Shown here: positions 49 through 25,563 of the stretch, in pieces
Layout of the letters: each line of letters starts with the position of its first letter
Position numbering within the stretch: position 1 is the first letter of the stretch
IMG/VR virus record: IMGVR_UViG_3300028548_002083
Location: 1-25,614 of that record
DNA: 25,614 nt
Strand: one strand, 5' to 3'
Source: a virus
Notes under the pieces: model-generated
Told to the model about the DNA's origin: nothing
Seen by the model: the letters and a program-made list of their open reading frames with translations, nothing else
Databases searched by the model: none
Position numbers and translations under genes: made by a program

Positions 49-99
49 CATCTATTAACTTACGGAAAAACAATTCAAAAAACTAAAATGGAAAACATT
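1..99. repeat. Exact 99-bp terminal redundancy (circular closure), left copy
   Basis: Bases 1-99 are identical to 25516-25614. An exact repeat of 99 bp at both contig ends is what a de Bruijn assembler leaves when it closes a circle or a circularly permuted molecule with a k-mer of 99. I therefore read it as an assembly overlap, not a biological terminal repeat. The non-redundant genome is 25,515 bp. The repeat spans the end of the protease gene, the intergenic leader and the first four codons of the scaffold gene. Confidence 0.95.
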
Positions 100-648: not shown

Positions 649-649
649 A

Positions 650-1618: not shown

Positions 1619-1629
1619 CATTTGAATAA

Positions 1630-1655
1630 GAAGGAGGTATTGAATTACATCCTTC
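1630..1655 (+). other. Hairpin containing AAGGAGGT between capsid and tail tube genes
   Basis: GAAGGAGGT (1630-1638) can pair with ACATCCTTC (1647-1655), eight of nine positions, around an 8-nt loop. It is not followed by a clean T tract, so it is at best a weak attenuator or an mRNA-stabilising stem. It contains a perfect-looking Shine-Dalgarno string, but this is about 45 nt from the next ATG and is probably not a ribosome site. Confidence 0.35.
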
Positions 1656-1683
1656 CATTCTTTAACTTAAAACAAAAACAACA

Positions 1684-2283
1684 ATGGCAAATTGTTTAAT
1701 TTCTTCAGGTCGTGGGCATTTTTGTCAAGGACAGGTTGGAGGTATAAAAACCATATTTCTTGCAAACTGGTATAGTGATAATAAGATTATCAGCGTGACT
1801 GCTGATGCTGATACTGGTATTGTTAGTGCATTAACACAAGCAACTGATCCAACACCAACTGCATTACAATTTTTTCAGTTTGATTTGGACAGACAAACAT
1901 CTTCTTTAAACCAAACAATCACAACTGGTGGTGGTGGTGCAATCAATTATGAACAAGCACTTGATGTACATATGTCACACGATTCACAGAAATCTTGGGC
2001 AAGAATGCAGAATGTGACTGAAGGTGTTTTTCAAGTTATCATCTTAGATAACAATGGAGTGTATTATTTAGCAGGTGTAGATAATGGAATCAGCGTTACT
2101 GGTGGGACATATGCTCACGGAGGTGATGTAGCTTTCACAGACTATGTTGGTTATATTATGCAAATGGTAGGTTCTGAACCTTTTCCAGCATTCAATTTAT
2201 CAACGGTTAATCCATTCACAGCTACTGCATTTACTACTCAAATTGCATTGAATATAGCTACATACAATGAACCACAATTATAG
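1684..2283 (+). CDS. Major tail tube protein (probable)
   Basis: This 199-aa protein has the size and feel of a siphovirus tail tube subunit. Residues about 60-95 contain FFQFDLDRQTSS, TITTGGGGA and NYEQALDVHM. The C-terminal half has VIILDNNGVYYLAGVDNGIS, then TGGT, then DYVGYIMQMVGSEPFPAF. The pattern of an element naming the ligand-free 'DNNG.YYL.G..NG...TGGT' stretch followed by 'GY.....G.EP.P' is one I associate with tail tube proteins of Bacteroidota phages. It is 65 nt downstream of the capsid gene and is followed by the strongest terminator in the genome, which fits a pair of highly made virion proteins. A head decoration protein is the main alternative, because the gene sits beside the capsid gene rather than in the tail block. 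Confidence 0.55.
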   Translation: MANCLISSGRGHFCQGQVGGIKTIFLANWYSDNKIISVTADADTGIVSALTQATDPTPTALQFFQFDLDRQTSSLNQTITTGGGGAINYEQALDVHMSHDSQKSWARMQNVTEGVFQVIILDNNGVYYLAGVDNGISVTGGTYAHGGDVAFTDYVGYIMQMVGSEPFPAFNLSTVNPFTATAFTTQIALNIATYNEPQL

Positions 2284-2302
2284 TTGATAGATTTACATTA
2301 AT

Positions 2303-2346
2303 AAAAAAACAAGATGGTGGTGGTTAATTCCATCACCATTTTTTTA
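2303..2346 (+). terminator. Intrinsic (rho-independent) terminator after the capsid/tail tube genes
   Basis: ATGGTGGTGG (2314-2323) pairs with CCATCACCAT (2330-2339), ten positions including one G-U wobble, around the loop TTAATT. A run of T (2339-2345) follows, and an A-rich run (2303-2309) precedes it. This is a well-formed terminator placed about 30 nt after the stop of the tail tube gene. It ends the protease-scaffold-capsid-tail tube transcript. Confidence 0.85.
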
Positions 2347-2358
2347 TATCTTTACTTT

Positions 2359-2526
2359 ATGAGAATTAAAAAAGAATTTATTGGAAGCATAATTCACAAA
2401 GGTCGTGTGAAAATTCACCTTCGTGAAGTTGTAACAGAATCAACAATGGAAAGATTGAAAGCTGAATTTCCACAATTTTTGGAAGAAGACAAACCAAAGA
2501 AGAAAAAGAAAGATGTTACATCTTAG
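2359..2526 (+). CDS. Small basic-tailed protein of the head module, unknown function
   Basis: The frame is open from an ATG at 2314, but that ATG is the first base of the terminator stem, so the start is placed at the next in-frame ATG at 2359. The resulting 55-aa protein begins MRIKKEFIGSIIHKG and reads like one short beta-rich domain with a helix (TESTMERLKAEFPQFLEED) and a Lys-rich end (KPKKKKKDV). It overlaps the next gene by 14 nt, implying co-translation. Its place between capsid/tail tube and portal suggests a virion or assembly accessory. I do not recognise a catalytic motif. Confidence 0.65.
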   Translation: MRIKKEFIGSIIHKGRVKIHLREVVTESTMERLKAEFPQFLEEDKPKKKKKDVTS

Positions 2527-3013
2527 AAGTTCAAATGGTTTTCTGAATGTGTTTTCTTTGGATGTTTATTCAAGGGTATATGCCAACACCATTTCAAATT
2601 TTGGAAGGCAAGTTGCAAACACAAGACAATACACACCAAACTTCAATTCTGATTATACTGGTTTCATATATTACATAAAACTAATTGACCAACTTTCACA
2701 AGAAGTTTATTGGTCAAGTTTATATAGTGATTATTCTGATAAGAACTATCCAAGAGCATTGCAATTTAAAGTATATCTTGATGACTTTGTTGGTGATTAT
2801 CATATCAACATCAAAACAACTGGATTGTTTGATTATGAAATATATCTTGGGCAAACTGGTGCAACACATTCTGATGATTCATTGATTAATGGAATGGTCA
2901 CAAATGGAATGGCACTTGTTCACAATGACAATTTCAAAAATGACTACTTCCAGAATTCACAGAATGGTGTAGAACCAACAATTATTCCATCTTCAATATC
3001 TTACAATGGCTAA
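2513..3013 (+). CDS. Putative virion protein upstream of portal, unknown function
   Basis: This is a 166-aa protein rich in aromatic residues, Asn and Ser, with a beta-strand-rich look (YTGFIYYIKLIDQLSQEVYW; FKVYLDDFVGDYHINIKTTG; LFDYEIYLGQTG). There are no membrane segments or Cys clusters. It overlaps both neighbours (14 nt upstream, 8 nt into the portal gene), so it is part of the head operon. Composition and location fit a structural or head-completion protein. I cannot name a family. Confidence 0.65.
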   Translation: MLHLRSSNGFLNVFSLDVYSRVYANTISNFGRQVANTRQYTPNFNSDYTGFIYYIKLIDQLSQEVYWSSLYSDYSDKNYPRALQFKVYLDDFVGDYHINIKTTGLFDYEIYLGQTGATHSDDSLINGMVTNGMALVHNDNFKNDYFQNSQNGVEPTIIPSSISYNG

Positions 3014-5075
3014 AAAAACACAACCATCTTCAGAATATATGTTCAATTCTATGGGATCAAGTTATTCAATGACTGATTCACAAGAAATTGAAAAGCGTGG
3101 TTCTGATTTCATATGGTATGGAGCAGACAATTTGTTCCCACAGCACACAATAAACTTGTATCAAAATTCTGCAACACAAAATGCATTGGTGAATTCAATT
3201 TCAGCTTGGATATATGGTGGTGGAATAGATGCAAAAAACAAAGCAAATCATCCTGAAGATTGGATGAAGTTCAACAAATTAATTAATCACAAAATTGGAA
3301 AGAATGACATCCAATTGATGTGTATGGATTTGAAACTTCACGGAGGTTTTTACATATCAATAAGTTATTCTGTGGACAGAACAGAAATTGTTGATATGGA
3401 AGTGCTACCATTTGAAACAATGCGTTCAGGTGATACAAATGAAGATGGTGGTGTTGATTGGTATTATCATTCATACAATTGGAGTGCTGGTGCAAGGGTT
3501 AAAACTACAAAACATCGGTCATTCAATCCATCGGAAAAAGCCACATATCCAAATCAAGTGTTGTGTGTGAAGATGAATTCTGTTGGTTCATACTATTATC
3601 CTAAACCAGATTATATTGGTGCCTGGAATTATATTGAACTTGATGTAAATGTTGCTCAATTCCATTTATCACAGATTGAGAATGGTCTTGCACCAAGTTT
3701 CATCATCAGTTTTGCAAATGGAATTCCACCAAGACAAAAGCGTGAAGAAATAAAAAGAACTATTGAAGCTGAACTTTCAGGTTCAAGAAATGCAGGAAAG
3801 TTTCTTTGTACATTTTCAGATGGTAAAGATACAACACCAGAAATTCAAGCTGTTCCTTTAAGTGATGCAGACAAACAATTCCAATTCTTATCAACTGAAA
3901 TCACTTCAAAGATAATGGTTGGAAATCGTGTTGTTTCACCAAGATTGTTTGGTGTCAATACTGATGGTGGTGGACTTGGAAACAATGCAGAAGAACTTCA
4001 AATTGCATCAGCTATATTTGAACAGACAGTCATTGATCCATTCAGAGATGTCATCATTGATGCTTTAAAAATGTTAATGGCTGAAAGTGGTGTGAATTTA
4101 GATATATTCTTTGAACCATTTGACTTGTTTAAGACTGAATTCACAAACACAGAAGCAGAAGTGATTGATAATGAAATTGCAGTTGATGTGATTCCAAATG
4201 CAAAAGCAACAATATCAGATGAAGTTGGTGGTGTAGTTGAAGAAGCTGAAACAGAAAAAGTTGATGCATCTTATAATGGTGCGCAAATTAGTTCAGCAAT
4301 TGACATAGTTGCAAAGGTTCAAGAAGGTGTCTTGACAGAAGAACAAGCAGTTGTTTTCTTGGTTCAATTCTTACAACTACCATTGGAAGTTGCACAAGGT
4401 TTCTTCAAGGGTGCTGGTCAATCACTTCTTGAAACAATGTCAGCAAAAAAAAAAGATGAAAGACCACATTTAAGTGATGAACAAGCAGAATTTTTCTTGT
4501 CTAAACTTGAAGAATGTTCTGAAGAAAATGACAATGAAGTTTGGGAATTAATTTCTGAAGATAAAATTAATACAAAAGAAGAACTTCACAAGTTTGCAAA
4601 CAAGATGCCAACTGAATCAATGGCTGATGCAGATGCAAAGTCTTCAAATGATGTTGGTCTTTACAAAGTTAGATACGCATATCAGAAGACTTCAAACACA
4701 CCAAACAAACCTGGTAATGGTTCAAGACAATTCTGTGAAAAAATGATGAATTGGTCAAGGGCTGGTCTTGAATGGCGTTTGGAAGATATTAATGAAATGT
4801 CATCAGATGGAATCAATGGTGATTTTGCTGAAAAAGGACAATCATCTTATTCGCTCTTTGAATGGAAAGGTGGTTGTTATTGCAGACACGGTTGGTTAAG
4901 AAGAATCTATTTCAGAAAGTCAAATCCAGATGGAACATTTATGCCAAACAAAGGATTGACAAATGAAACAAGGGTTGGAAACAATCCATTCATTGTTCAA
5001 AAAGGTACAGAATCTATTGCACCTTATGACACACCAAATAACGGAAAAGTTAATCCACCATTTATGAAATCCTAA
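3006..5075 (+). CDS. Portal protein with fused C-terminal Cys-containing domain
   Basis: The 689-aa product opens with motifs typical of Bacteroidota phage portals: WYGADNLFPQ (37-46) and SATQNALVNSISAWIYGGGI (55-74). A long alpha/beta portal core runs to about residue 400, including the wing/stem region with LSGSRNAGKF and NTDGGGLGNNAEEL. The portal forms the dodecameric DNA gate at one capsid vertex. Simple portals are about 400-520 aa; this one carries extra sequence. After an acidic linker (about 400-550) comes a second domain at about 550-665 with SRQFC (573-577), WRLEDINEMS and GGCYCRH (C624, C626, H628). This C-terminal unit resembles the Cys/His-bearing domains attached to head-morphogenesis or XkdF-type proteins in related phages, which is inference. 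Placement after the capsid gene is unusual. Confidence 0.8.
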   Translation: MAKKTQPSSEYMFNSMGSSYSMTDSQEIEKRGSDFIWYGADNLFPQHTINLYQNSATQNALVNSISAWIYGGGIDAKNKANHPEDWMKFNKLINHKIGKNDIQLMCMDLKLHGGFYISISYSVDRTEIVDMEVLPFETMRSGDTNEDGGVDWYYHSYNWSAGARVKTTKHRSFNPSEKATYPNQVLCVKMNSVGSYYYPKPDYIGAWNYIELDVNVAQFHLSQIENGLAPSFIISFANGIPPRQKREEIKRTIEAELSGSRNAGKFLCTFSDGKDTTPEIQAVPLSDADKQFQFLSTEITSKIMVGNRVVSPRLFGVNTDGGGLGNNAEELQIASAIFEQTVIDPFRDVIIDALKMLMAESGVNLDIFFEPFDLFKTEFTNTEAEVIDNEIAVDVIPNAKATISDEVGGVVEEAETEKVDASYNGAQISSAIDIVAKVQEGVLTEEQAVVFLVQFLQLPLEVAQGFFKGAGQSLLETMSAKKKDERPHLSDEQAEFFLSKLEECSEENDNEVWELISEDKINTKEELHKFANKMPTESMADADAKSSNDVGLYKVRYAYQKTSNTPNKPGNGSRQFCEKMMNWSRAGLEWRLEDINEMSSDGINGDFAEKGQSSYSLFEWKGGCYCRHGWLRRIYFRKSNPDGTFMPNKGLTNETRVGNNPFIVQKGTESIAPYDTPNNGKVNPPFMKS

Positions 5076-5078
5076 ATT

Positions 5079-5642
5079 ATGGCACTACCAACACAAGTCA
5101 TCTATATTGATGCAACTTATATAAAAGCATATTCACATCTTGATGGTTCAATAGATGAAAAGGATTTGTTGCCTTCAATTATTCAAGCACAAGACAGTCA
5201 GATTCAACCAATTCTTGGAACAGATTTGTTCAATGCTTTGAAAACAAAAATTACTGCTGGAACAATTGCAGGAAATTATGAAACACTTCTTCAGGATTAT
5301 GTTCAAATGGCAACATTAAAATGGACATTGGTAAACTTCTATCCGTATCTTCAAGGTAAAATTCTAAATGGAACTATTGGATCAAGGAATGTGGACAATA
5401 TTACAGCACTTTCACAATCTGAAGTGATGAGATTGGTTGACATTGAAAGAGATAATGCACAATTTTACACAGAAAGATTGATTCAATACTTGACAAACAA
5501 CACTACATTGTTTCCAGAATACGCATCAAATACTGGTTCAGACATTTATCCAGAAACACAAACATATGCAGAAGCAGGTTTGACAATTTCAGGATCACAA
5601 AGAGGAATCAACAAATTGGCAAATTGGAATTGCTGTAAATAG
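5079..5642 (+). CDS. Head-tail connector (adaptor) protein
   Basis: The 187-aa protein begins three nt after the portal stop. Its N-terminal part is helical with YIKAYSHLDGSIDEKDLLPS, IQAQDSQIQPILGTDLF and YETLLQDYVQMATLKW. This is the pattern I associate with the gp6/gp15-like connector proteins of Bacteroidota phages (DUF6712-type), which bind under the portal as a ring. A second half of lower conservation contains SEVMRLVDIERDNAQFYTERL. The size matches the family. Position directly after the portal supports the role. Confidence 0.7.
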   Translation: MALPTQVIYIDATYIKAYSHLDGSIDEKDLLPSIIQAQDSQIQPILGTDLFNALKTKITAGTIAGNYETLLQDYVQMATLKWTLVNFYPYLQGKILNGTIGSRNVDNITALSQSEVMRLVDIERDNAQFYTERLIQYLTNNTTLFPEYASNTGSDIYPETQTYAEAGLTISGSQRGINKLANWNCCK

Positions 5643-13013: not shown

Positions 13014-13301
13014 ATGGCATTTGAAAAAGGAAACAAACTTGCGGGAACAAGAAAAGGAATACCAAACAAAACAACCCAAGAAATTCGTGAAGCATTTCAA
13101 CTGTTAATTGAAAACAATCAAGATAAAATGCAGTTGTGGTTAACAGAAACAGCAATGGAAGAACCAGCAAGAGCATTGGAAATCATTTTGAAGATGTCTG
13201 AATATATTGTTCCAAAGCTATCAAGAACAGAAGTCAAAGCAGAAATTACAGATAAATCAATTGTAATAAATTTAAGACCATTGGATGTCAACAAAAATTG
13301 A
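13014..13301 (+). CDS. terS: Terminase small subunit
   Basis: A 95-aa protein with the typical start of Bacteroidota phage small terminases: FEKGNKLAGTRKGIPNKTTQ (3-22), then EIREAFQLLIENNQDKMQLW, then RALEIILKMSEYIVPKLSRT. It has a small N-terminal DNA-binding helix set, while the rest is a helical oligomerisation domain. It recognises phage DNA and hands it to the large subunit. Its last 17 nt overlap the large-subunit gene. Confidence 0.8.
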   Translation: MAFEKGNKLAGTRKGIPNKTTQEIREAFQLLIENNQDKMQLWLTETAMEEPARALEIILKMSEYIVPKLSRTEVKAEITDKSIVINLRPLDVNKN

Positions 13302-14601
13302 TATAGACTTATTCCCAAAGCAAGTTGAATGCTTTCAATACTTAGAAGATGATTCAACAACTGAAATTCTTTTTGGTGGTGGTGCAGGTGGTTCAAAAAC
13401 TTTTACTGGTTGCCTTTGGCAAATACACAGAAGACTTCAATATGCTGGAACAAGAAGCGTGATTGGAAGAAGTAAATTGAAGAATCTAAAGTCAACAACA
13501 TTGAACACATTCTTTGAAGTTGCTCAAGACTTTTGTGGTCTTAAACCAAATGAAGATTTCACATACAATGCACAAGATTCAACTATAACTTTCTTCAATG
13601 GTTCAATTATATATTTGAAAGACTTGTTTTTATATCCAAGTGATCCAGACTTCACATCACTTGGTGGTTTAGAAATCACAGATTGTTTCATTGATGAATG
13701 TTCTGAAGTTTCACATAAGGCAATCAACATTCTGAATTCAAGAATAAGATTCAAGCTGGACAAATACAATTTGATTCCAAAAACATTGATGACTTGCAAT
13801 CCAACAAAAACTTGGTTGTATTCTGAATTTTATAAACCAGCAAAAGAAAACAGACTTCAAAGCCACAGACAATTCATTCAATCACTTGTAACAGACAATA
13901 AAGCAATTTCAATACATTACATCAATCAACTGGAAAAACTTGACAAGGTGTCAAGACAAAGACTTTTACTTGGTGATTGGGAATACAATGAAGATGATGC
14001 ATTGCTTTTTGATTATGATGCAATCCACGATATGTTTACCAATTCAATTGAAAGTGGTTCAGGATTTATCACTTGTGATGTTGCCAGATTTGGTGCAGAT
14101 AAAACAGTCATTATGTATTGGAATGGAATGTCAGTTGAAAAGATTGTGATGCTTGACAAATCATCTATATTTGATACAATTGAAGCAATCAAATCAATGG
14201 CACTTCAGAACAATGTTCAAAGGTCACACATAATTGTTGATGAAGATGGTGTTGGTGGTGGTGTGAAAGATGGTCTTTCTGGTATCAAAGGGTTTGTGAA
14301 TGGATCAAAAGCATTAAAGTCAGAAAACTTTCAAAACTTAAAGACACAATGCTACTTCAAATTTGGTGAAATGGTGAATGCTGGAAAGGTATCAATCAAA
14401 GATTCAAGATACAAACAAACAATAATTGAAGAACTTGAAATCGTTAAGCGTGATAAACTTGACAAAGATTCACAGAAGCTGTCAATAGTTCCAAAAGATG
14501 TGATGAAACAATTACTTGGAAGGTCACCAGATTATGCTGATGCATTGATAATGAGAATGTGGTATGAAGTCAAAGGAAATTATGGTGTATATGCTTTCTA
14601 A
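13285..14601 (+). CDS. terL: Terminase large subunit (packaging ATPase-nuclease)
   Basis: This 438-aa protein is full length for the family. The ATPase N-domain has a Walker A-type loop, GGGAGGSKT (31-39), and Walker B, CFIDEC (134-139, D137 and E138). The C-terminal RNase H-like nuclease shows TCDVARFGADKT (263-274, D265), VDEDG (318-322, D319) and SPDYADAL (414-421, D416), the acidic triad region that binds metal. It pumps DNA into the prohead through the portal and cuts the concatemer. The N-terminus begins in the TerS gene. Confidence 0.95.
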   Translation: MSTKIDIDLFPKQVECFQYLEDDSTTEILFGGGAGGSKTFTGCLWQIHRRLQYAGTRSVIGRSKLKNLKSTTLNTFFEVAQDFCGLKPNEDFTYNAQDSTITFFNGSIIYLKDLFLYPSDPDFTSLGGLEITDCFIDECSEVSHKAINILNSRIRFKLDKYNLIPKTLMTCNPTKTWLYSEFYKPAKENRLQSHRQFIQSLVTDNKAISIHYINQLEKLDKVSRQRLLLGDWEYNEDDALLFDYDAIHDMFTNSIESGSGFITCDVARFGADKTVIMYWNGMSVEKIVMLDKSSIFDTIEAIKSMALQNNVQRSHIIVDEDGVGGGVKDGLSGIKGFVNGSKALKSENFQNLKTQCYFKFGEMVNAGKVSIKDSRYKQTIIEELEIVKRDKLDKDSQKLSIVPKDVMKQLLGRSPDYADALIMRMWYEVKGNYGVYAF

Positions 14602-14638
14602 AAGGAAAAAACAAAATAAAGAACTTTAAACTATTGAA

Positions 14639-15211
14639 ATGAAAAAGACTTTTGAAATAGACATTCCAACAAAATGGGATGATGTAAGCATTAAGAAATA
14701 CAATCAGTATAATAATGCAATCAAAGACTTGACAGATGAACAAACAATCATCATCAAGACCATTAGTGTTTTGTGTTCAATTCCTGAATATGTGGTTGAA
14801 GTTATGAAGTTGAAAGACTTGAAGGTGATTCAAGAAAACTTGCATAAATTAATCAATCATCCAGTAAACAAGACCATTATAAACAAGATTGAAATTGATG
14901 GAATCAAATATGGCTTTCATCCAAATCTGGATGAATTGACACTTGGTGAATTTGTAGATGTTGAAACATTCACAAAGGAAAATGATATTGCAAAAATTAT
15001 GTCTATTCTTTACAGACCAATAGTAAAAGAAGATGGAAACAGATATGACATTGAACCATATGATTTTGATGTACATTCACTAAATAGTGTTAAATTTGAA
15101 AGATTATCAATCAATGTTGGAAATGCAATTGTTGTTTTTTTTTGGGCTTTAGGAAAAGACTTATTGAACAATTTTCATCAGTCTTCAAAGGTGGTGGAAA
15201 AAAGTCTGTAA
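14639..15211 (+). CDS. Tail assembly chaperone, 0-frame product (gpG-like)
   Basis: The 190-aa protein begins MKKTFEIDIPTKWDDVSIKK and has a helical middle (YVVEVMKLKDLKVIQENLHK), the composition of siphovirus tail assembly chaperones that bind tape measure protein. Near its 3' end is a run of nine T (15135-15143). After slippage the ribosome would enter the reading frame that ends at 15390 (next entry). In the 0 frame, translation continues past the T run as VVFFWALGKDLLNNFHQSS and stops at 15211. The gene follows TerL by 37 nt, with an ACTTTAAA box in the leader. Confidence 0.7.
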   Translation: MKKTFEIDIPTKWDDVSIKKYNQYNNAIKDLTDEQTIIIKTISVLCSIPEYVVEVMKLKDLKVIQENLHKLINHPVNKTIINKIEIDGIKYGFHPNLDELTLGEFVDVETFTKENDIAKIMSILYRPIVKEDGNRYDIEPYDFDVHSLNSVKFERLSINVGNAIVVFFWALGKDLLNNFHQSSKVVEKSL

Positions 15212-15390
15212 GTTCAAACTATGGATGGTTTTCAATTATTGATTCATTAGCTGGTGGTGACTTGTTAAAGATTGATCCAATTACAAATTTGCCATTGATG
15301 TTGTGTTTAACAAAACTTTCACTTAATGCTGATATGCAAATTGAAAGAGATAAAGAAGCAAGACAAAAACAAAACAAGAATAAAAAATGA
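15142..15390 (+). CDS. Tail assembly chaperone extension (gpGT-like), reached by -1 frameshift
   Basis: This frame has no plausible own start: only a TTG at 15142 inside the upstream gene. It is best read as a -1 continuation of 14639-15211. Codons GTT-TTT-TTT-TGG at 15134-15145 contain the slippery heptamer T-TTT-TTT (15136-15142), and slipping back one base continues as LGFRKRLIEQFSSVFKGGG. The fusion would be about 250 aa. The extension has YGWFSIIDSLAGGDLLKIDP and NLPLMLCLTKLSLNADMQ, then a Lys-rich end. This is the G/GT arrangement of many siphovirus and myovirus tails. The stop overlaps the next ATG (ATGA). Confidence 0.7.
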   Translation: MGFRKRLIEQFSSVFKGGGKKSVSSNYGWFSIIDSLAGGDLLKIDPITNLPLMLCLTKLSLNADMQIERDKEARQKQNKNKK

Positions 15391-16589
15391 TAACATACAA
15401 AGCAATCATTCAGTATTTTGATTCAATTGCAGATCAACACCAGCAAATCAATTCTTTCACTTATGGTGAATTGAACTTTTTTGACAAAGATAAATTCACA
15501 GAATATCCTGCATTACACATCACACCAACTGCAACATCTATTGATGATCAAGTTGTTGTTTATGGATTTGATGTAATTGTCTTTGACAGATACAACATTG
15601 AATCAAACAAGATGAGAAATGAAGCAAATTGTCTTTCTGATTCATTGCTAATTCTTCAAGATTTATGCAAAGAAATAACAGATGGTAAGTATTTTATAAA
15701 TGCAGACACTTTGATTTCAATGGAACTTCCAGTATCAGCACAACCATTCATTGATACAGAACCAGACAATTGTTCTGGATGGGCAACATCATTCAATGTC
15801 ATCACACCAAATGAGGCATCAGCTTGTTTGATTCCTTACTTCAATCCTGGAAGACAGAATGCATTGGAATTCACACTTCCAAATTCTGCACCTTCAATTC
15901 TTGCTTGGTATTCAAGGGAAAGAATTCACAATCAAACATCATTCACTGGTCAAGAAGTTTCAACACTTTCAGCAGTTGTTGATACAACTCCAGGTTCTGA
16001 TGTTTTGACAATGCAAGGTTCAAGTTCTACTTGGTCACCAAACAAGAATGCTTTTCATTTTTATGATGCATCAACAACCAATCAAATGAATTTGCAGCAT
16101 CCAATAGCTACGACTAATTATGCTACATTTTTTGTTAGAATAAAAGATTTTTCAAGATATTCTCCAACAACTGATAATAATTCAATTTGTTATATAGGTT
16201 CTCCAAATAATGATGGGTTTGAAATTATAATTCAAGGTGGTTTTTTAAAGATTATAAGCTGGACAGATTACTCACAAATAGCATCTGACTTTACTATTTG
16301 TCCAACAAACGGAAATAGTTTTGAAACTGCTCACAGAAGACTTGAACCTTTTACATTCTGTGTTCAGTTTGATTCAGTAGCAAATGAAATAACTTTATGG
16401 TGGGGTGGAACAATATATGATAAAGCATCAATGACTACGGTCTTTAATTTTTCAAATAAATTCTTTGGAATAGGACAGACAGAAGTCACAAAAACATCTG
16501 ATTTCTATCTTCAAGAATATATTTATTCACCAACTGATATGACAGATGCAGACATTGAATCAACAATGGAATGGCTAAATTATAGATAA
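15387..16589 (+). CDS. Tail-terminator-like protein fused to a lectin-like (concanavalin-fold) domain
   Basis: The 400-aa product has two parts. Residues 1 to about 145 (ITYKAIIQYFDSIADQHQQI; YPALHITPTATS; QVVVYGFDVIVFDRYNIESN) resemble tail terminator/tail completion proteins. Residues about 170-400 look like a LamG or concanavalin-A-like beta-sandwich: WSPNKNAFHFYDAS, YATFFVRIKDF, FEIIIQGGFLKIISW, FTFCVQFDSVANEITLWWGG, YLQEYIYSPTDMTDADIEST. Such domains bind sugars. The end is like the C-terminal LamG end of the 1316-aa tail protein. A lectin on a tail-tube-end protein would sit near the neck and is unusual. Both domain calls are by eye. Confidence 0.55.
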   Translation: MITYKAIIQYFDSIADQHQQINSFTYGELNFFDKDKFTEYPALHITPTATSIDDQVVVYGFDVIVFDRYNIESNKMRNEANCLSDSLLILQDLCKEITDGKYFINADTLISMELPVSAQPFIDTEPDNCSGWATSFNVITPNEASACLIPYFNPGRQNALEFTLPNSAPSILAWYSRERIHNQTSFTGQEVSTLSAVVDTTPGSDVLTMQGSSSTWSPNKNAFHFYDASTTNQMNLQHPIATTNYATFFVRIKDFSRYSPTTDNNSICYIGSPNNDGFEIIIQGGFLKIISWTDYSQIASDFTICPTNGNSFETAHRRLEPFTFCVQFDSVANEITLWWGGTIYDKASMTTVFNFSNKFFGIGQTEVTKTSDFYLQEYIYSPTDMTDADIESTMEWLNYR

Positions 16590-17171
16590 ATGATTCCAAC
16601 TACTAAACAAGAACTTCAGAAGTTTGGAACAAGGGTTGTAAAACTTGCAAGGATCAATCTTGGTGCATCTAAAATGATTGATGGAAAGAAGCGAGTGACA
16701 AACAATTCTGGTGCATTGTCTTCTTCTTTAGGATTTCAACTAAAGCAAAAAAGAAGTAGTGGTGGAAAGTTTGCAATTGGTTTTGATTTAGAATTCACAT
16801 CATCTGTTGATTATGCTTTGTTTATGGAACAAGGTGTGCGAGGTTCAGAAGCATCACCAATAGGAACAAAAGATTCACCATTCAAATTCAAAGGAAAGAA
16901 TGTTGCAAAGGGTGTAATTATGAAATGGATTGAAACAAAGCCAATCAGACTTCGTGAACTTGGAACGGGTAAATTCAAAAAGAATACTGAATCAGCAAAA
17001 AAAACAATGGCATTTCTGATTGGAAGAAAGATTGCAACACAAGGTCTTGCACCAAGAAACTATTTCAAAGATGCACTTGAAGTGGCTATTCCAACAGATG
17101 GAACTGATGTTGCACTTGCAATGGCTAATGATTTCATTAAGCAAATTATAAAAGAAATTAAACTTACTTAA
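16590..17171 (+). CDS. HK97 gp10-like tail/neck completion protein
   Basis: A 193-aa protein with signatures of the HK97 gp10 family: NNSGALSSSLGF, then a beta hairpin (GKFAIGFDLEF), YALFMEQGVRGSEASPIGTK, SPFKFKGKN, and a C-terminal GLAPRNYFKDAL helix. These proteins complete the head-tail neck or tail end. It directly abuts the previous gene's stop. The gene is placed in the tail block rather than next to the connector, in keeping with the rearranged order of this genome. Confidence 0.75.
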   Translation: MIPTTKQELQKFGTRVVKLARINLGASKMIDGKKRVTNNSGALSSSLGFQLKQKRSSGGKFAIGFDLEFTSSVDYALFMEQGVRGSEASPIGTKDSPFKFKGKNVAKGVIMKWIETKPIRLRELGTGKFKKNTESAKKTMAFLIGRKIATQGLAPRNYFKDALEVAIPTDGTDVALAMANDFIKQIIKEIKLT

Positions 17172-17172
17172 G

Positions 17173-18648
17173 ATGGCATTAACTGTACTTATAAACGACA
17201 CAAACTTCAACATATCAACTGGACAGAATATTGCCTATGTGACCACAGATACAACTGGTGCTGGTGTGTTCAAGTTTAGATTCTTGATGGAACTTACATA
17301 CAAGATTCAAGGAATAGCAACACCAATCACAAAGGAAATATCATTCACACAACAACAGAATCAAGATGGACAAGCAGTATTTAATCTGTCTGAAATCTAC
17401 AAGTCAATTGTAACACCACAAATAACACCATCTTTAGATTCAGACGCACCAACAACATCAACTGCATCACAGAAGGGAAACATTCACACATTGCCAAACA
17501 TAAGTGGTGGAGTTGCAAAGATGTTTTCACCAGGACTTCTTGAAAATTCAACTGGTTATGAAGCATTCAAGGGTGTTGCAAATGTGATGACTTTGAAGTT
17601 CTATGAAATGTATGCAACAACTGCTGCTGGTATTCCTGTCAAAGATCCATTAGGAATTGGTGCAGTTACAAAAACAATGTATATGTTCTGGGGTAGAGGT
17701 CAAGAAGATGAAGGTGTTGTGGTTGATTTTGAGCCTTACAAATTAGATGGAAATACAAAACAATTTCTTTCATCTAATTATGATTTTGATGGTACTTCTT
17801 ATATTACTAATATTGGAAAAGATGAATATCATACAATTGCAATGTTGAATCTGTGTGCAATAAATACATCAGCCGAACCATATAAAATGACAGTAGACTA
17901 CTTTACAGAAATAAATTGTGGAGGAACAAATCTTGGAAGTTTGGTGTTTTTAAATAATTCAACAAATGGTGGTTCATATGATATTACAACTGACAATGAA
18001 TCTTTCTATTTATATTTTGGTATTGGTTTAGAGAATTTACAAAAAGTAATAATTGATGATCCAAACATTATTGGTGCACTTCCTGATGATGTTGCTGGTG
18101 GTCTTGATGCCATAAAATCATATAGATTTTCAGCAAGAGAAGATACATTTGCCTCTTTCAGGTCTGATGTTTATTGTTTTAATATTGTGAACTATTGTCC
18201 ACAATTTGACCAATCAAGACTTGCATATATGAACAGATTTGGTGCTTGGGAATATATTACATTGAATAAAGAAAGAACTGATGATTTAAGTGTAAAAAAA
18301 GAATACATTACAAAGCCAATAATAAATCAAGCAACTGGTCTTGCAACTTATGTTGCATCACAAATCAATACTGCATACCCTTTAGATGTAGCAAAGCAAG
18401 GAATGATGACCACATCTGTTGCACCAACTATTACAACTAAGATGTTCACAGACTATCTTCCAGAAGATAAGATTGAACAAATAAAAGATTTGATGATGTC
18501 ACCACAGATTCATTTGTTAGATGGTGAAAATGCTAAAGCATTAATACTTCAAACAAGCACAATGAAGTTAAAGCGTGAAAAGAATAGAGGATTGTATCAA
18601 TATGAATTGAAGTTCAACTTTGCAAACCCTAAATTTAGAACAACTTAG
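17173..18648 (+). CDS. Tail structural protein, probable baseplate/distal tail component
   Basis: A 491-aa beta-rich protein. It has an N-terminal beta domain (KFRFLMELTYKIQGIATPIT), a Gly/Asn/Asp-rich middle, and a C-terminal part with CPQFDQSRLAYMNRFGAWEY followed by TDDLSVKKEYITKP. This 'YMNRFGAWE.ITL...R' pattern I have seen in tail proteins that precede the large tail hub gene in Bacteroidota phages. No enzyme motif is present. A tail-tip or receptor-binding support role is inferred from its position directly before the 1316-aa tail protein. Confidence 0.6.
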   Translation: MALTVLINDTNFNISTGQNIAYVTTDTTGAGVFKFRFLMELTYKIQGIATPITKEISFTQQQNQDGQAVFNLSEIYKSIVTPQITPSLDSDAPTTSTASQKGNIHTLPNISGGVAKMFSPGLLENSTGYEAFKGVANVMTLKFYEMYATTAAGIPVKDPLGIGAVTKTMYMFWGRGQEDEGVVVDFEPYKLDGNTKQFLSSNYDFDGTSYITNIGKDEYHTIAMLNLCAINTSAEPYKMTVDYFTEINCGGTNLGSLVFLNNSTNGGSYDITTDNESFYLYFGIGLENLQKVIIDDPNIIGALPDDVAGGLDAIKSYRFSAREDTFASFRSDVYCFNIVNYCPQFDQSRLAYMNRFGAWEYITLNKERTDDLSVKKEYITKPIINQATGLATYVASQINTAYPLDVAKQGMMTTSVAPTITTKMFTDYLPEDKIEQIKDLMMSPQIHLLDGENAKALILQTSTMKLKREKNRGLYQYELKFNFANPKFRTT

Positions 18649-21600
18649 ATGGCTACACAGATACGAGTAACTACACAAGAAGATTCAGTCAATGCATCAA
18701 GGGTTGTATATTTGGACTTGTCTGACAGTCAACCAATGACTGCAAACTATCAGTTTAAGGATATACAAGATTTCAAATCTACCAAAGGAAATCACACATT
18801 CAATTTCCGTATTCCTTCAACACCAAACAATGATTTATTCTTTGGTGACTATTTTGAAGTGACACAATTTGGAAACTACAATCCAAAGATAAAAGTTGAA
18901 GCAACAATTTTAAAAGATACATTTGATGTCTTTGAAGGCTATCTTCAATTGACAAATGTATTTGTTTCCAATGATGTAACACACCATTATGAATGTGTGG
19001 TGTTCAGTTCTGTTTCGACACTTGGACAAGTTTTACAAGGCAAGTATTTGACAGAATTTGATTGGTCTGAATATGACCATTCAATCACACAATCAAATGT
19101 ATTAGATTCAATGAATAGAGATGTAACACCATTATTAAATGGGGATATTGTCTATTCAATGTATGATTATGGTTCACACATTTTTGGAGGTGGCACAGAA
19201 GGTTCTTCTGGAAATGAAGCAACACCCTTAAATGTGATGAATCTTAGACCACAAATCAGATTAAGTAAAGTGCTTAAAAAGATATTGAATGCATCTGGAT
19301 ATACTTATGCATCTACATTTATTGATTCTGAAATGACTGATGTTTATATTGATATGAACAATGGTAATGAAGCACCACAAACCAATACAAGTGAATTTTC
19401 TTATAAAGTTGATGTAGGTTCTGATGGAACACAAACTTTTCCTGCATCAAATGGATTTCATACAGTAATAAATAATAACACAACTGGTTTTTTCTATACA
19501 AATCAATCTGGTGAATATGATGAAACAACTGGTATCTATAATCCAAGTGACTTGTGGGTAATGACTACAATGCAACATATGGTCAGAATAAGTGGTACAC
19601 CAGCAGATGTTGATGGTACATTAGCATTTCTTTGTGTTAGAAATCTTACAGACAATATACTTCTTCCAGTTACTTCACCACAAGGAACATTTGTTGATGG
19701 TGAAGTTGTTTTGACAATTAGTGCTATGCAATATATGTTGGACACTTCAAAAACTTATGATGTTGTTGTATTAATAATGAACACAACTGATGCAACTGCA
19801 ACTATTACAATTGATAGTGGAAATATAAGATACAGACCATTATCATATGTAACAGTTGGTGGAACAGAATTTGACTACAATGCAAGTGTTGAATTTCAAG
19901 CAAGTAGAAACTTTGCAAAAATTAAAGCACTTGATTTCATCACATCAATTGCAAAGAAATTCAATCTGGTAATAATTCCAGATGAACTGAATCCGACACA
20001 CTTGTACATTGAACCATATAAAGATTGGATTGATGATGGAAACAATGTTGATTGGACTGAAAAACTTGATGTTTCAAAAGATGTTCAACTTAAACCAACA
20101 GCAGATTTACAAGCAAAGTCAATTATATTTTCAGATGCACAATCTGATGATGTACTTAATACTAATTTTAAACAAGTAAATGAAAGAATATATGGTTCAC
20201 AATATGTGGACAATACTTCAAATGATTTTGGAAAAGACAAAGAAGAAATAAAAACAATCTTCATTCCTATCATTTCAAGATTCATTCCATCCACAGACAT
20301 CATCAGTTGTATATGCTATAATACAGAAGGCACTAATTCTTCAGCAGTAAGACTTTCATATTATTCTGGATATGTAACAACAAACAGCGACATTTGGTTT
20401 AATGATACAATACCAGGAACAAGTGCAATTCAAAAGACATCATTTTCATTGTTTCAAAACTATGAAGATGCAGTTTTTTCAGCATCCACAAAATGCTTGT
20501 CATTTATGGGTGAACAAAACAACAACTTAGGTTATCCAGGTTCATTGAATGGTGCTTATTCTGTTTATTGGAAAAGGTTCTTAGAAGAAACTTATTCAAG
20601 GGAAGCAAGAATTCTGACTGGAACATTCTTTCTTACTGCATTAGATATTCAGTCAATGAACTTCAATGACATTGTATTTGTAAAAAATGAATATTTTAGA
20701 ATAAATAAAATATTAAATTATCCTTTAGTTGGTAGTTCATCTTGTCAGATTGAATTGATAAAAGTTCAAATGGTTGATTTGCTTGATGTAAATGGTGCAT
20801 CTTGTTTGGTTTCACCATCTCAAGTATTAGGTACTGGGCAAGTGGTATTCATAAACAATGCAACTGGAGTTGTTGAAGTGCCATCTGAAACCTGTTGTGA
20901 AGCATTTGGATATGTATATAATAACACAGATTTAATTTGTTACAACACCACATTTCAACCAGACAATCCATCAGAAGAAGATCCAACTGGTGGTGATGGA
21001 AATAATATTGGAGGTGGAAACAATCAAAGTACTGGAGTATTTAACCAAATAATTGGAAACAATAATTCAGCATCTAATTTTAGCCAGATAAATGGAAACA
21101 ACAACACCATTGTTCCTTCATCAAACTTCAATATTGCACAAGGGAATAAAAATAAAATAAATGCTTTAGTGAATAATTCATCAATAAAGGGTGGAAATAA
21201 TTTATTGAATCCGTATTCATTGAATTGGACTGGTGCATCTTTTAAAGTCTATTCAAGACAAACATTCAAGAATAATTCATTACAAGGTGATTATGGACTT
21301 GCTCTTGGTAATGGTGAAGAATTTCTTTCAGGTGGTGCTGATTCATTATATAATCAACCAGGAAGAAGTGGTTCTGGGCATTTTGTGAAACACGCATTTT
21401 CAGACAGTCAAGAAATTGTTTTTATTGGTCAAAATGGAATGTTTACTTTTGGAACAGATTACTTTTATAGCCAATCAATAAACTTTTTTAGACTTGAATT
21501 TCCATCAATGATTTCATTTGAAATTAATGTTGTTGGACACGATAGAGGTACAGCATCATCAAGAAGTCAAGAATATTCATTCAGAAAATATAGTGGAACA

Positions 21601-22599
21601 ATACTAAACACAAACAATTCTGGAACTGTTTCAATCAAAGACTTTACACTTGATACACAAAAAGAAACATCAAATTTTACAGATTATAGTTTCACATTAT
21701 CATCATCTTATGTTGTAACTGACAGACCAGTTGGAGGTGGTGATTTGGTTTACATTGATGATGGTATGTTTTATATGTATATAAATACAAATGGTGCAAA
21801 CAAACTTGGAATTGTAGATTGGACAATAGACTTCAAATATACACTTGTTGGTTTACAGAATTTAGGAAGGTCAAGTGGTTTACCTATATTCACACCAACA
21901 CAAATATCTGGATGTTTATTGTGGGTAGATGCATCTGATCCAACAACAATCACACATTCTGGTGGTGTTGTTTCTCAATGGGATGATTTGTCTGGAAACA
22001 ACCATCATCTGACACAAAGTACAGCATCCTATAAACCAACTTATTCATCTGTTGTTCCTTATCCTTATATAAAATTTGATGGTAACAATCAAGTTCTTGG
22101 TAATCAAGCATCATCATTGATAAATGCTTCAGATGGTGACAATACAATTTTTGTGGTTTTTAAATCTGACAGCACTACGACATCAACAAAAGGTGAAACA
22201 ATTGCAGGTATTTGTTATAGAGCATCACAACTTTATGGAATAAATATTAATAATACAATTACTGGTGCAGGTGGTTCATCATTTATGAACAAATCTACAC
22301 AAGATTACTTAAATAGAGTTGCAACTATTCCTTCAACAACTAAGCAAGTTCTAATTGGAACAAGGGCTTCAGGTACAAGAGAAATTTTTGACCAAGATGG
22401 AAACACCGACATTGACACAAATTCATCAAATACTTTACAAGACACATTTGTTGTTGGTGCTACTTGGGACGGAACTTCAAGGTCACCAGTTCAAGACTAT
22501 TCTGGTGAAATTTATGAAGTAATAGTTTACGGAGTTAAAGTGACAGAAGCACAAAGAAATCAAGTACAAAATTATCTACAAACAAAATGGAACACATAA
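18649..22599 (+). CDS. Large tail hub/fibre protein with beta-roll and C-terminal LamG-like domain
   Basis: At 1316 aa it is the largest product. Residues 1 to about 160 match tail hub proteins of Bacteroidota phages (RVVYLDLSDSQPMTANYQFK, NHTFNFRIPSTPNNDLFFGD, FEGYLQLTNV, EFDWSEYDH). The middle is beta-rich. Residues about 785-855 are a run of Gly/Asn turns (NNIGGGNNQS, IIGNNNSASNFSQINGNNNT, QGNKNKINALVNNSSIKGGN) like the YadA-type trimeric beta-roll. Residues about 1080-1316 form a LamG/concanavalin-like domain with LLWVDASD (1090-1097) and QWDDLSGNNHH (1110-1120), ending VYGVKVTEAQRNQVQNYLQT. I expect a trimeric tail fibre fused to the hub that binds host glycans. It probably determines host range. 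Confidence 0.7.
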   Translation: MATQIRVTTQEDSVNASRVVYLDLSDSQPMTANYQFKDIQDFKSTKGNHTFNFRIPSTPNNDLFFGDYFEVTQFGNYNPKIKVEATILKDTFDVFEGYLQLTNVFVSNDVTHHYECVVFSSVSTLGQVLQGKYLTEFDWSEYDHSITQSNVLDSMNRDVTPLLNGDIVYSMYDYGSHIFGGGTEGSSGNEATPLNVMNLRPQIRLSKVLKKILNASGYTYASTFIDSEMTDVYIDMNNGNEAPQTNTSEFSYKVDVGSDGTQTFPASNGFHTVINNNTTGFFYTNQSGEYDETTGIYNPSDLWVMTTMQHMVRISGTPADVDGTLAFLCVRNLTDNILLPVTSPQGTFVDGEVVLTISAMQYMLDTSKTYDVVVLIMNTTDATATITIDSGNIRYRPLSYVTVGGTEFDYNASVEFQASRNFAKIKALDFITSIAKKFNLVIIPDELNPTHLYIEPYKDWIDDGNNVDWTEKLDVSKDVQLKPTADLQAKSIIFSDAQSDDVLNTNFKQVNERIYGSQYVDNTSNDFGKDKEEIKTIFIPIISRFIPSTDIISCICYNTEGTNSSAVRLSYYSGYVTTNSDIWFNDTIPGTSAIQKTSFSLFQNYEDAVFSASTKCLSFMGEQNNNLGYPGSLNGAYSVYWKRFLEETYSREARILTGTFFLTALDIQSMNFNDIVFVKNEYFRINKILNYPLVGSSSCQIELIKVQMVDLLDVNGASCLVSPSQVLGTGQVVFINNATGVVEVPSETCCEAFGYVYNNTDLICYNTTFQPDNPSEEDPTGGDGNNIGGGNNQSTGVFNQIIGNNNSASNFSQINGNNNTIVPSSNFNIAQGNKNKINALVNNSSIKGGNNLLNPYSLNWTGASFKVYSRQTFKNNSLQGDYGLALGNGEEFLSGGADSLYNQPGRSGSGHFVKHAFSDSQEIVFIGQNGMFTFGTDYFYSQSINFFRLEFPSMISFEINVVGHDRGTASSRSQEYSFRKYSGTILNTNNSGTVSIKDFTLDTQKETSNFTDYSFTLSSSYVVTDRPVGGGDLVYIDDGMFYMYINTNGANKLGIVDWTIDFKYTLVGLQNLGRSSGLPIFTPTQISGCLLWVDASDPTTITHSGGVVSQWDDLSGNNHHLTQSTASYKPTYSSVVPYPYIKFDGNNQVLGNQASSLINASDGDNTIFVVFKSDSTTTSTKGETIAGICYRASQLYGININNTITGAGGSSFMNKSTQDYLNRVATIPSTTKQVLIGTRASGTREIFDQDGNTDIDTNSSNTLQDTFVVGATWDGTSRSPVQDYSGEIYEVIVYGVKVTEAQRNQVQNYLQTKWNT

Positions 22600-22829
22600 G
22601 AATCACAATTTCCAAAAAAGCAAATTTCACATCTTTGAAAAGGCTTGATTTCACACCTATGTTTCAATATTGGAATGGTGCAATGAAGTTCATCCCAAAG
22701 GTGCTTAAATCACTTCCAAATGACTTGTATGAAAACAACAAGTGTTTGACTTGGTATGAAAGTCAAGTTGTAAAGAATAGAAAGAAAATGATTGAATTTA
22801 AAAACATATTCAGATGGCTGAAAAAATAG
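22587..22829 (+). CDS. Small basic protein between tail fibre and tape measure, unknown
   Basis: An 80-aa basic protein overlapping the tail fibre stop by 13 nt and the tape measure start by 16 nt, so its translation is linked to both. It reads MEHIRITISKKANFTSLKRL, MFQYWNGAMKFIPKVLKSLP and YESQVVKNRKKMIEFKNIFR. No TM or Cys motifs are visible. A tail assembly accessory is likely by location only. Confidence 0.6.
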   Translation: MEHIRITISKKANFTSLKRLDFTPMFQYWNGAMKFIPKVLKSLPNDLYENNKCLTWYESQVVKNRKKMIEFKNIFRWLKK

Positions 22830-24592
22830 TTGTTGACATAGAGTTCCAAACCAATGTTTCCAAGATTTCAAAAGATTTGGAATCAGTAAAAGATTCACTT
22901 GCTGAAACAAATGAAAATCTTGAAGATATTGCAAAGACTGGAAAATCAACAGATGGTGCATTGGGAAAAATTGGAAAAGGTTTCAAGGGTGTTGGACTTG
23001 CTATGAAAACACTTGGTGTTGGTCTTATCATTGAAGCATTCAAGTTTTTAAAAGACATCTTGATGCAGAACCAGACAGTTATGGATGGTGTTTCAATAGT
23101 TACAGAAACTCTTGGTGTGGTATTCAATCAAATTACAAGTGTTGTGACTGATGTGTTTGATGCTGTTTCTGAATCATCTGAAGGATTTGAAGGAATGAAA
23201 AAAGTGATTGGTGGCTTGATGACAATTGCAATATCGCCTTTAAAACTTGCTTTCTTTGGAATTACTAAAGCAGTTCAAGAAGGTCAATTGGCTTGGGAAC
23301 AATCCTTTTTTGGTGATGGTGATCCTGAAACTATTGCACAACTAAATGAAAAATTAGCTGAAACAAATGCAAATTTAAAAGAAGTTGTTAAAGATGTTGT
23401 TGAAGCAGGAACACAAGTTGCCACAAATATTGCTGAAGCAGTCACAGAAATTGGTTCAGTTGTTTCAATTGCTGTTGATGTTGCATCTGAAGGAATTAAA
23501 GAAATATCAATTGCTGGTGCTTTAGCAACTGGAACTGCTCTTGCTGATGCCAAAAAGAATGAAGAACTTCTTGAAGTACAAAGAGCAACACAACAACTAC
23601 AAGGACAATTGGATGCAGAAATGCAAAGGCAAATTCGTGATGATGTCAGAAAAACATTTGAAGAAAGAATTGCAGCAAATGATGAACTTGGAAAGGTACT
23701 TGAAGAACAGACAGCAAAAGAAAAAGCAGTTGTTGATGAAAAAGTAAGAATAGCACAACTTGAACTTTCAACAAATGAATCATCTGTTGAATTGCAAAAG
23801 AAACTTTCTGAAGCACAACTTGGACAGCTTGAACTAAAAGAAAGAATTGCAGGTCAAACATCTGAACAACTAACAAATCAAGCAGCACTTGAAAAAGAAT
23901 TGTTTGATGCACAAAATGAAATTCAACTTGCAACAATGACTGCAAGAGAACAAGAATTTCTGGCACTTGAACAAGACTATTTAGCAAAAGCAGAACTTGC
24001 AAGAAAGGCTGGTGAAGATGATGTTGCAATCACAGAACAATACAATGCACTTGTTCTTGCAGCAGATGAAAAATTTGCTAAAGAAGATTTAGATGTTCAG
24101 AAAACACTTGATGATGAAAAATCTGCTTTAGCTTCAGCACAGCTTGATGTGGTACAGAATTCAATCAAGATGGCTGGTGACTTATTTGAAGAAGGAACTG
24201 CTGCATCAAAAGTTGCTGGTGTTGCATCAGCTACAATTGACACCTGGAAAGCAGTCAATATGGCTTTAGCATCTGCACCACCACCATTGTCATACATTTC
24301 TGCTGGACTATCATTAGCAACTGGATTGAAATCTATTAAAAATATACTTTCAGTTAAAACTAAAAAACCAACTTCAACACCATCGCCAGGTGATGCAACA
24401 CTTCCATCTGCTGCTGGTAGTGGTGGAGGTTCAGAATCAATTGCAGACTTGTCAAACATCCCTTCAATAACTGAACAGTTTAATAATCAGTTTGCACAAG
24501 ACACACCACCAGTTCAAGCATTTGTGGTTGAACAGCAAGTCACAAATTCACAACAAATCAACACAATGATTCAACAAAAAGCAACACTTTAA
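22814..24592 (+). CDS. Tape measure protein
   Basis: A 592-aa protein with the usual tape measure plan: helical N-terminus (SKISKDLESVKDSLAETNEN), hydrophobic Gly-rich segments (GFKGVGLAMKTLGVGLIIEA near 57-76; IGGLMTIAISPLKLAFFGIT), a long coiled-coil centre (about 175-450) and a C-terminal membrane-like region (SKVAGVASATIDTWKAVNMA, YISAGLSLATGLKSIKNI near 460-512). Length sets tail length: 592 aa at about 1.5 A per residue would give a tail near 90 nm, which is an estimate. It is placed after the tail hub/fibre gene rather than after the tail chaperone. Confidence 0.85.
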   Translation: MAEKIVVDIEFQTNVSKISKDLESVKDSLAETNENLEDIAKTGKSTDGALGKIGKGFKGVGLAMKTLGVGLIIEAFKFLKDILMQNQTVMDGVSIVTETLGVVFNQITSVVTDVFDAVSESSEGFEGMKKVIGGLMTIAISPLKLAFFGITKAVQEGQLAWEQSFFGDGDPETIAQLNEKLAETNANLKEVVKDVVEAGTQVATNIAEAVTEIGSVVSIAVDVASEGIKEISIAGALATGTALADAKKNEELLEVQRATQQLQGQLDAEMQRQIRDDVRKTFEERIAANDELGKVLEEQTAKEKAVVDEKVRIAQLELSTNESSVELQKKLSEAQLGQLELKERIAGQTSEQLTNQAALEKELFDAQNEIQLATMTAREQEFLALEQDYLAKAELARKAGEDDVAITEQYNALVLAADEKFAKEDLDVQKTLDDEKSALASAQLDVVQNSIKMAGDLFEEGTAASKVAGVASATIDTWKAVNMALASAPPPLSYISAGLSLATGLKSIKNILSVKTKKPTSTPSPGDATLPSAAGSGGGSESIADLSNIPSITEQFNNQFAQDTPPVQAFVVEQQVTNSQQINTMIQQKATL

Positions 24593-24600
24593 AAACCAAA
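24572..24600 (+). repeat. 29-nt direct repeat, copy 1 (tape measure 3' end)
   Basis: The 29 nt that encode the last residues of the tape measure (Q-Q-K-A-T-L-stop) plus eight bases recur without mismatch at 24673-24701, exactly 101 bp downstream. This copy is coding; the second is non-coding. Confidence 0.85.
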
Positions 24601-24705
24601 GCTTATAACTACTTAATATATAGCCTTTTAAAAAAAGTATTTGATATGCTACTTAATAAAAACAAAATAAAACAACAAAAAGCAACACTTTAAAAACCAA
24701 AAATT
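24593..24705. other. Intergenic region between tape measure and protease
   Basis: This is 113 nt of A/T-rich DNA without an ORF. Its contents are the 29-nt duplication described above and two CTACTTAATA copies. An ACTTTAAA-type box lies at 24687-24694. No convincing intrinsic terminator or host-type promoter is visible. Confidence 0.6.
24673..24701 (+). repeat. 29-nt direct repeat, copy 2 (protease leader)
   Basis: An identical copy of 24572-24600 immediately before the protease ATG at 24706. It provides the protease gene with the A-rich, ACTTTAAA-containing leader. The 72 nt between the copies hold a further short repeat (CTACTTAATA at two places) and no ORF. Confidence 0.85.
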
Positions 24706-25563
24706 ATGACTAAAATAGTAGAACTAATTATTTCAGAAGAAGAAAAAGAATCACAAGATGGTGTCTTTGCAATTTCATTAGTTGAAGATCCAGCAATTGA
24801 TGAATATTGGATTGCTTTAAATAAGCAAAAGAAAGAACATATTCAATTTGCAAAAGTAGATGAAGACAAAAGACTTTTGATTGCACCAGCTTTGATTCCT
24901 AATAAACAAATTTTTAGACTTGATGATGATGGTTCTGACTACTATGTTTATTTTTCAAAGGATACAATTAAGCAATGTTCTGAATTGTATATGAAAAGAA
25001 ATCATTTACAATCAACAACACTTGAACACGAAGAAGAAGTTGATGGAATGTGTGTTGTTGAATCGTGGGTAAAAGAATTTGAAATTGATAAATCTGTTAA
25101 GTACGGTTTTGAACATTGCCCAGTTGGTACTTGGTTTGTAACAATGAAAGTTGACAATGATGAAATATGGAACAAAGTCAAAGAAGGTGAAATTCTTGGA
25201 TTTAGTATTGAAGGATTCTTTACTGATAAATTAAGCAAGTTTGCAAAAGTAAGAAAGAACAATGATTGTTCAGATGGATTTGAACATCAAATGAATGATG
25301 GTTCTTGGATGTGTGGTAAATCAATGGGATATTCTGAAGAAGAAGGAAATCTTCAAATGATTAAGAACTTAATTGTTGAAGCTGAAACAACATACCTTGA
25401 ATCATATCCTTGGGATGAATGTATTGCAGACCAAATGGCTGAATATGGCAATGAAGAAACTGCAAACAAGATTTGTGGTGCTATTAAAAACAGAACAATT
25501 GCATCTTCAGTTGTTCCAAAAGTAAAAGCAATCCTTGATGTTGAAAGGAAAAAAAGCAATTAA
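24706..25563 (+). CDS. Prohead protease, XkdF-like (S78-type) serine protease
   Basis: The 285-aa protein matches the XkdF family of putative phage serine proteases. Key elements are LVEDPAIDEYW (25-35), RLLIAPALIPNKQIFR (56-71), TTLEHEEEV (104-112, candidate catalytic H108), VVESW, GTWFVTMKV and GEILGFSIEGFF (161-172, candidate nucleophile S167). It would cleave scaffold and capsid during head maturation. A second unit at 233-262 (SYPWDECIADQMAEYGNEET, then KICGAIK) is a motif often attached to phage head proteins. The stop lies in the terminal redundancy and the gene is intact in the circle. It sits in front of scaffold and capsid, as expected. Confidence 0.85.
   Translation: MTKIVELIISEEEKESQDGVFAISLVEDPAIDEYWIALNKQKKEHIQFAKVDEDKRLLIAPALIPNKQIFRLDDDGSDYYVYFSKDTIKQCSELYMKRNHLQSTTLEHEEEVDGMCVVESWVKEFEIDKSVKYGFEHCPVGTWFVTMKVDNDEIWNKVKEGEILGFSIEGFFTDKLSKFAKVRKNNDCSDGFEHQMNDGSWMCGKSMGYSEEEGNLQMIKNLIVEAETTYLESYPWDECIADQMAEYGNEETANKICGAIKNRTIASSVVPKVKAILDVERKKSN

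Follow-up and report, generated by a model that had tools for sequence, protein, structure and literature searches.

The window, the whole 25,614-nt virus record analysed here, carries on its plus strand an intact open reading frame that runs from ATG to stop at positions 15387-16589 and encodes a 400-aa protein. The gene lies among neck and tail genes, after the gene for the terminase large subunit (TerL) and directly 5′ of a Neck1-like gene (Table 1). The P12024L member of phrog_29822, the family matched by this neck gene, has a further match (E 4e-4) to phrog_5, annotated 'tail completion or Neck1 protein'. In the cultured Nonlabens phage P12024L, TerL, gp40, gp41, gp42, and gp43 (synteny gp39-gp43) correspond to the window's TerL, 190-aa gene, an 82-aa ORF, the gene studied here, and the Neck1-like gene. 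In three lineages (the window, P12024L, and the L102 group of loci), the gene studied here or its homologue stands immediately before a Neck1-like gene. The relationship of TerL to that of Flavobacterium phage 11b makes a flavobacterial host (Flavobacteriia) probable. Across positions 13285-25563 and 88-5642, TerL stands apart from the portal and capsid genes, and neck and tail genes come immediately after it. The two ends of the record contain the portal gene (3006-5075) and the capsid-like and S78 peptidase-like genes, and replication-type genes lie between these ends.

Table 1 Features of the window around the 400-aa gene.
Feature	Position	Strand	Basis
Terminase large subunit (TerL)	13285..14601	+	45.5% identical to Flavobacterium phage 11b TerL over 99%
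Conserved 190-aa gene between TerL and terminator	14639..15211	+	phrog_32199, E 4e-9 (member: P12024L gp40)
Predicted tail-terminator domain, residues 1-147	15387..15827	+	AF2 model m89fe91507c94, fold search, stand-alone homologues
Linker, residues 148-160, after invariant Cys147	15828..15866	+	Low pLDDT at 146-155; conservation drop
Putative exchangeable cassette	15845..16499	+	blastn of window vs L014: no detectable nucleotide similarity inside
Predicted concanavalin A-like (LamG-type) jelly-roll domain, residues 161-400	15867..16586	+	Predicted structure, fold search
Neck gene, 193 aa, likely Neck1/HK97 gp10-like	16590..17171	+	phrog_29822, E 1.5e-14; synteny with P12024L
491-aa virion gene with hypervariable internal segment (residues ~195-330)	17173..18648	+	L001 vs L017 comparison

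Relatives of the 400-aa protein are encoded at 21 loci in viral contigs, and most of them span all 400 residues; a search of bacterial genomes found none. Full-length relatives on viral contigs of 28-29 kb show the fusion to be real, which rules out a frameshift or an error of assembly as its origin. Sequence searches with the whole protein against known phages, Pfam, PHROGs, and the PDB gave no informative match. Antibody chains among the PDB sequence matches were dismissed as chance, the top row (E 0.025) being a designed cytokine agonist. In an alignment of 16 close relatives, mean pairwise identity is 82% over residues 1-152 but 42% over residues 165-400. Along the protein, conservation falls from 84% (residues 121-140) through 65% (141-160) to 46% (161-180). 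Structure prediction supports two domains, a tail terminator and a concanavalin A (ConA)-like jelly roll, rather than a single continuous fold. The border lies near residue 147 and a short linker extends to about residue 160, close to the boundaries of 145 and 170 proposed in the preliminary description.

A first fold computed with the 16 close relatives left residues 1-153 at a pLDDT of ~30 because the N-domain alignment of close relatives was too uniform; a diverse 30-row alignment (A6) cured this, yielding AF2 model m89fe91507c94 with a pLDDT of 81 and a pTM of 0.78. The model shows a terminator-like arrangement of a helix (residues 4-17), a strand pair, and a second helix (75-98). Its top solved match is lambda gpU (3fz2; VIA Z 11.6, 2.9 Å, 125 residues aligned), and the R2 pyocin collar (VIA Z 11.5), T5 p142 (11.0), neck chains of phiCD508, Sf14, and P74-26, and many others also match. 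Terminators from phages, pyocins, or contractile injection systems fill nearly all the top rows, and Foldseek likewise places gpU first (E 7.8e-5). The predicted structure confirms a siphophage tail-terminator fold for residues 1-147 and bears out the preliminary description, which had read residues 1-145 as terminator-like.

The window protein has no significant match to a named terminator family among PHROG, Pfam, and PDB-sequence profiles, and its relatives match only phrog_30964, a family with no named function, in profile searches. P12024L gp42 (138 aa) belongs to phrog_30964 and aligns across the whole N-domain at 19% identity. It is tied to the window terminator via the homologue L102, which was found with this terminator family's profile, is 25% identical to the N-domain of the query L065, and matches phrog_30964 at E 3.6e-9. 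HHalign comparisons of the close-relative N-domain profile with P12024L gp42 and phi46:1 gp17 are weak; gp17 is linked to the window terminator by gene position only.

Among these relatives the terminator is a modular platform that is bare, bears a jelly roll, or bears a collagen-like stalk with a knob. Homologues without a C-terminal domain, which the preliminary description had suggested looking for, do exist: 79 complete L102-related loci encode stand-alone terminators of 152-157 aa that end just past the domain border, and gp42 of P12024L is another. In the window's own family, every full-length relative found carries the jelly roll. A more distant homologue, L098, whose terminator domain shares only 33% identity with the query used, bears a remote version of the jelly roll that aligns with the present C-domain over its whole length (HHalign E 3e-5). 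In the L099 group, 17 loci have Gly-X-Y collagen-like repeats and reach up to 851 aa, and four are stand-alone; some of the proteins end in the Pfam 'Phage tail tip domain' (PF24243) or in other terminal domains. In the terminator branch L183-L205, the collagen-like stalks are long (GTSGSSG) and have diverse domains inserted in them or at their ends; the proteins reach 851 aa, some include PF24243, and the arrangement resembles a whisker built into the terminator. The terminator domain ends in a cysteine, Cys147 (window 15825-15827), that is conserved in every row of the 30-row alignment, whatever the architecture; 75 of the 79 stand-alone proteins end no more than three residues from its equivalent, and it is perhaps disulfide-bonded to a protein of the tail or neck.

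The C-terminal domain is modelled with a pLDDT of ~90 from about residue 170 onward. Its best match is the arabinan-binding domain of AbnA (VIA Z 18.8, 2.5 Å, 188 residues), and VIA Z reaches 18.5 both for the isolated AbnA domain 4, whose structure was solved with a bound arabino-oligosaccharide, and for the lectin domain of T. cruzi trans-sialidase. The PilC pilin, a pilus-tip lectin (VIA Z 16.9), and the Pan3 tailspike of a cyanopodophage (16.5) follow. Among the viral structural matches are two uncharacterised full-length homologues, of 393 and 408 aa, together with many proteins that carry a concanavalin A-like annotation. At the level of the predicted structure, a ConA/LamG-like jelly roll is confirmed, as the preliminary description had proposed for ~230 residues, and the best solved matches include carbohydrate-binding domains. 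In sequence, one of 13 C-domains matches the Laminin_G_3 profile (E 0.024), and no Pfam or PDB sequence profile ties the domain to a characterised lectin. Clostridial toxin binding domains occupy many Foldseek rows, and a functional link to them was rejected, since only the fold is shared, at 8-15% identity. The jelly-roll fold is by itself no proof of sugar binding, since ConA folds also serve protein-binding or structural roles; we infer sugar binding from the model and its matches. Elsewhere in the window, the C-terminal domain of a 1316-aa tail gene (21889-22596) matches phrog_10356 (E 1e-20) and looks LamG-like by eye; profile comparison detected no similarity between it and the terminator lectin.

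Comparison of close relatives shows that phages which are otherwise nearly identical exchange the jelly roll as a cassette. The contigs of L001 and L017 are 97.0% identical in TerL, 100% in the upstream gene, 96.7% in the terminator domain, and 99.5% in the Neck1-like gene, against 28.5% in the C-domain. Their nucleotide similarity (96.8%) ends at codon ~143 and restarts at about codon 370, with sharp borders. The window and L014 behave alike, with blastn similarity of 83% up to codon 152 that restarts at codon ~371 with 81%; their terminator domains are 91% identical and their C-domains 33%. When 32 proteins were clustered at 50% identity, the terminator formed one cluster and the C-domain 11. 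This pattern of exchange is the way in which receptor-binding modules evolve, although drift or escape from other pressures could also cause fast C-domain divergence. The 491-aa gene downstream is 90-100% identical between L001 and L017 outside its hypervariable segment and 17-60% inside it. This segment is swapped along with the lectin in that pair, and it may be a second display module.

At its head end, the tail tube is capped by the terminator, a hexamer. In phage Milano, the C-terminal arm of the terminator reaches outward to the sheath (PMC10491603). Together these two facts imply that up to six copies of a C-terminal lectin would be exposed at the neck. We consider it likely that the 400-aa protein is the terminator of a small siphovirus-type phage whose C-terminal ConA-like lectin equips a neck ring with as many as six swappable domains that bind glycans as an aid to adsorption. 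The hexameric ring at the top of the tail tube, through which the tube docks to the head, would most likely be built from residues 1-147, and the short linker would let up to six jelly rolls project sideways at the neck. There they would bind glycans, most likely of the host surface (capsule or exopolysaccharide), and this auxiliary, probably reversible adhesion could add avidity or hold the virion while the tail tip finds its receptor. Specificity would reside in the C-domain, the part that is swapped as a cassette. The hexamer, its copy number, the outward position at the neck, the glycan ligand, and the role in adsorption are all features that we infer. For HFTV1, head turrets rather than the tail tip have been proposed to make the first contact with glycans (PMC12494034).

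Swapping of the module between near-identical phages suggests that selection acts on its binding target. Host-surface glycans are the simplest candidate and would fit the cassette pattern better than mucus, which the preliminary description named beside capsular glycans and which has no specific support. It is improbable, in our assessment, that the lectin instead binds non-host glycans, such as algal polysaccharide, mucus, or particles, and retains the phage near its hosts with no part in adsorption: plant or algal glycans would be suitable ligands for a ConA fold whose best match is an arabinan-binding domain, but the exchange between near-identical phages and the variable module of the 491-aa gene look like host-specificity switching. 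The jelly roll might also be structural, a brace for the first ring of the tail tube or for the junction of head and tail, comparable to the extra β-sandwich of the phage 812 terminator. The terminators of phages 812 and phiCD508 have extra domains, and that of 812 binds sheath proteins (PMC12886913); this sheath-binding β-sandwich is the main reason for keeping the structural reading. A bracing domain should, however, co-evolve with its neighbours, yet the jelly roll is swapped beside a 99.5% identical Neck1-like gene and a 97% identical terminator. Many homologous terminators lack it altogether, and no sheath gene was seen among the phage's recognisable genes, so that we rate a structural role as quite unlikely. 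Least plausible, and very unlikely, is a terminator-fold ring located elsewhere, for instance in the distal tail, with the module as an ordinary receptor-binding protein; the third branch, in which the same fold carries the tail-fibre features of collagen-like stalks and PF24243, speaks for it, but the solved matches are tail-proximal terminators and the gene directly precedes the Neck1-like gene in the window, P12024L, and the L102 group.

Beyond the preferred reading of an auxiliary neck adhesin, we regard as evenly balanced the broader proposal that in this lineage the terminator serves generally as a ring on which swappable adhesion modules are mounted (lectins, collagen-like stalks with knobs, or nothing), that recognition or first contact is made partly from the neck, and that host range shifts by cassette exchange. 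Phage adsorption is usually read from tail-tip proteins; the present protein suggests that the phage also grips surfaces at the neck, beyond the tail tip. If terminators bear exchangeable adhesins, the host-range determinants of many uncultured phages would have been overlooked, because annotations list the terminator gene as unknown or as an ordinary neck protein. A clean natural experiment is offered by phages whose neighbouring genes agree at 97-100% identity but whose neck lectins differ.

Among known systems, the neck passage structure (NPS) of lactococcal 936 and P335 phages comes closest. It has a conserved N-terminus of ~180 residues and seven exchangeable C-terminal groups, including carbohydrate-binding domains; those of the 936 neck bind host cells, weakly, and the neck structure of TP901-1 is non-essential (PMC6669499). 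Like the NPS, the window protein would be a neck decoration, at a presumed neck site, with a conserved N-terminal anchor and exchangeable C-terminal modules. The NPS, however, is a dedicated accessory protein with a BppU-like β-sandwich N-terminus, whereas the scaffold here is the terminator itself, with a predicted gpU-like fold in place of that β-sandwich. By analogy, the window protein would work like an NPS without being one. In Gram-positive siphophages, evolved Dit and MTP-TpeX place carbohydrate-binding modules on a tail structural ring and raise avidity, but they sit at the tail tip or along the tube rather than on a head-proximal cap. The Streptococcus sanguinis minor pilin PilC (7oa7, 7oa8) is likewise a structural polymer subunit with a ConA/LamG-like lectin module, although it belongs to a type IV pilus, outside phages, and its scaffold is unrelated. 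The terminators of lambda (gpU), T5 (p142), and R4C have the same predicted fold and core size as residues 1-147; the gpU-type siphophage terminators among the structure matches measure 117-167 residues, none long enough for a 240-residue lectin domain. The terminator of Staphylococcus phage 812 has, as here, two parts, a core and an additional β-sandwich, but that phage is contractile and the domain binds the tail sheath, and the available part of its description contains neither evidence of cassette exchange nor a lectin fold assignment (PMC12886913). The open literature searched, with incomplete coverage, held no precedent for a terminator with a lectin, collagen, or carbohydrate-binding domain. 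In its probable function, the window protein resembles the decorations of necks, Dit proteins, and tail tubes, but its scaffold is a different one.
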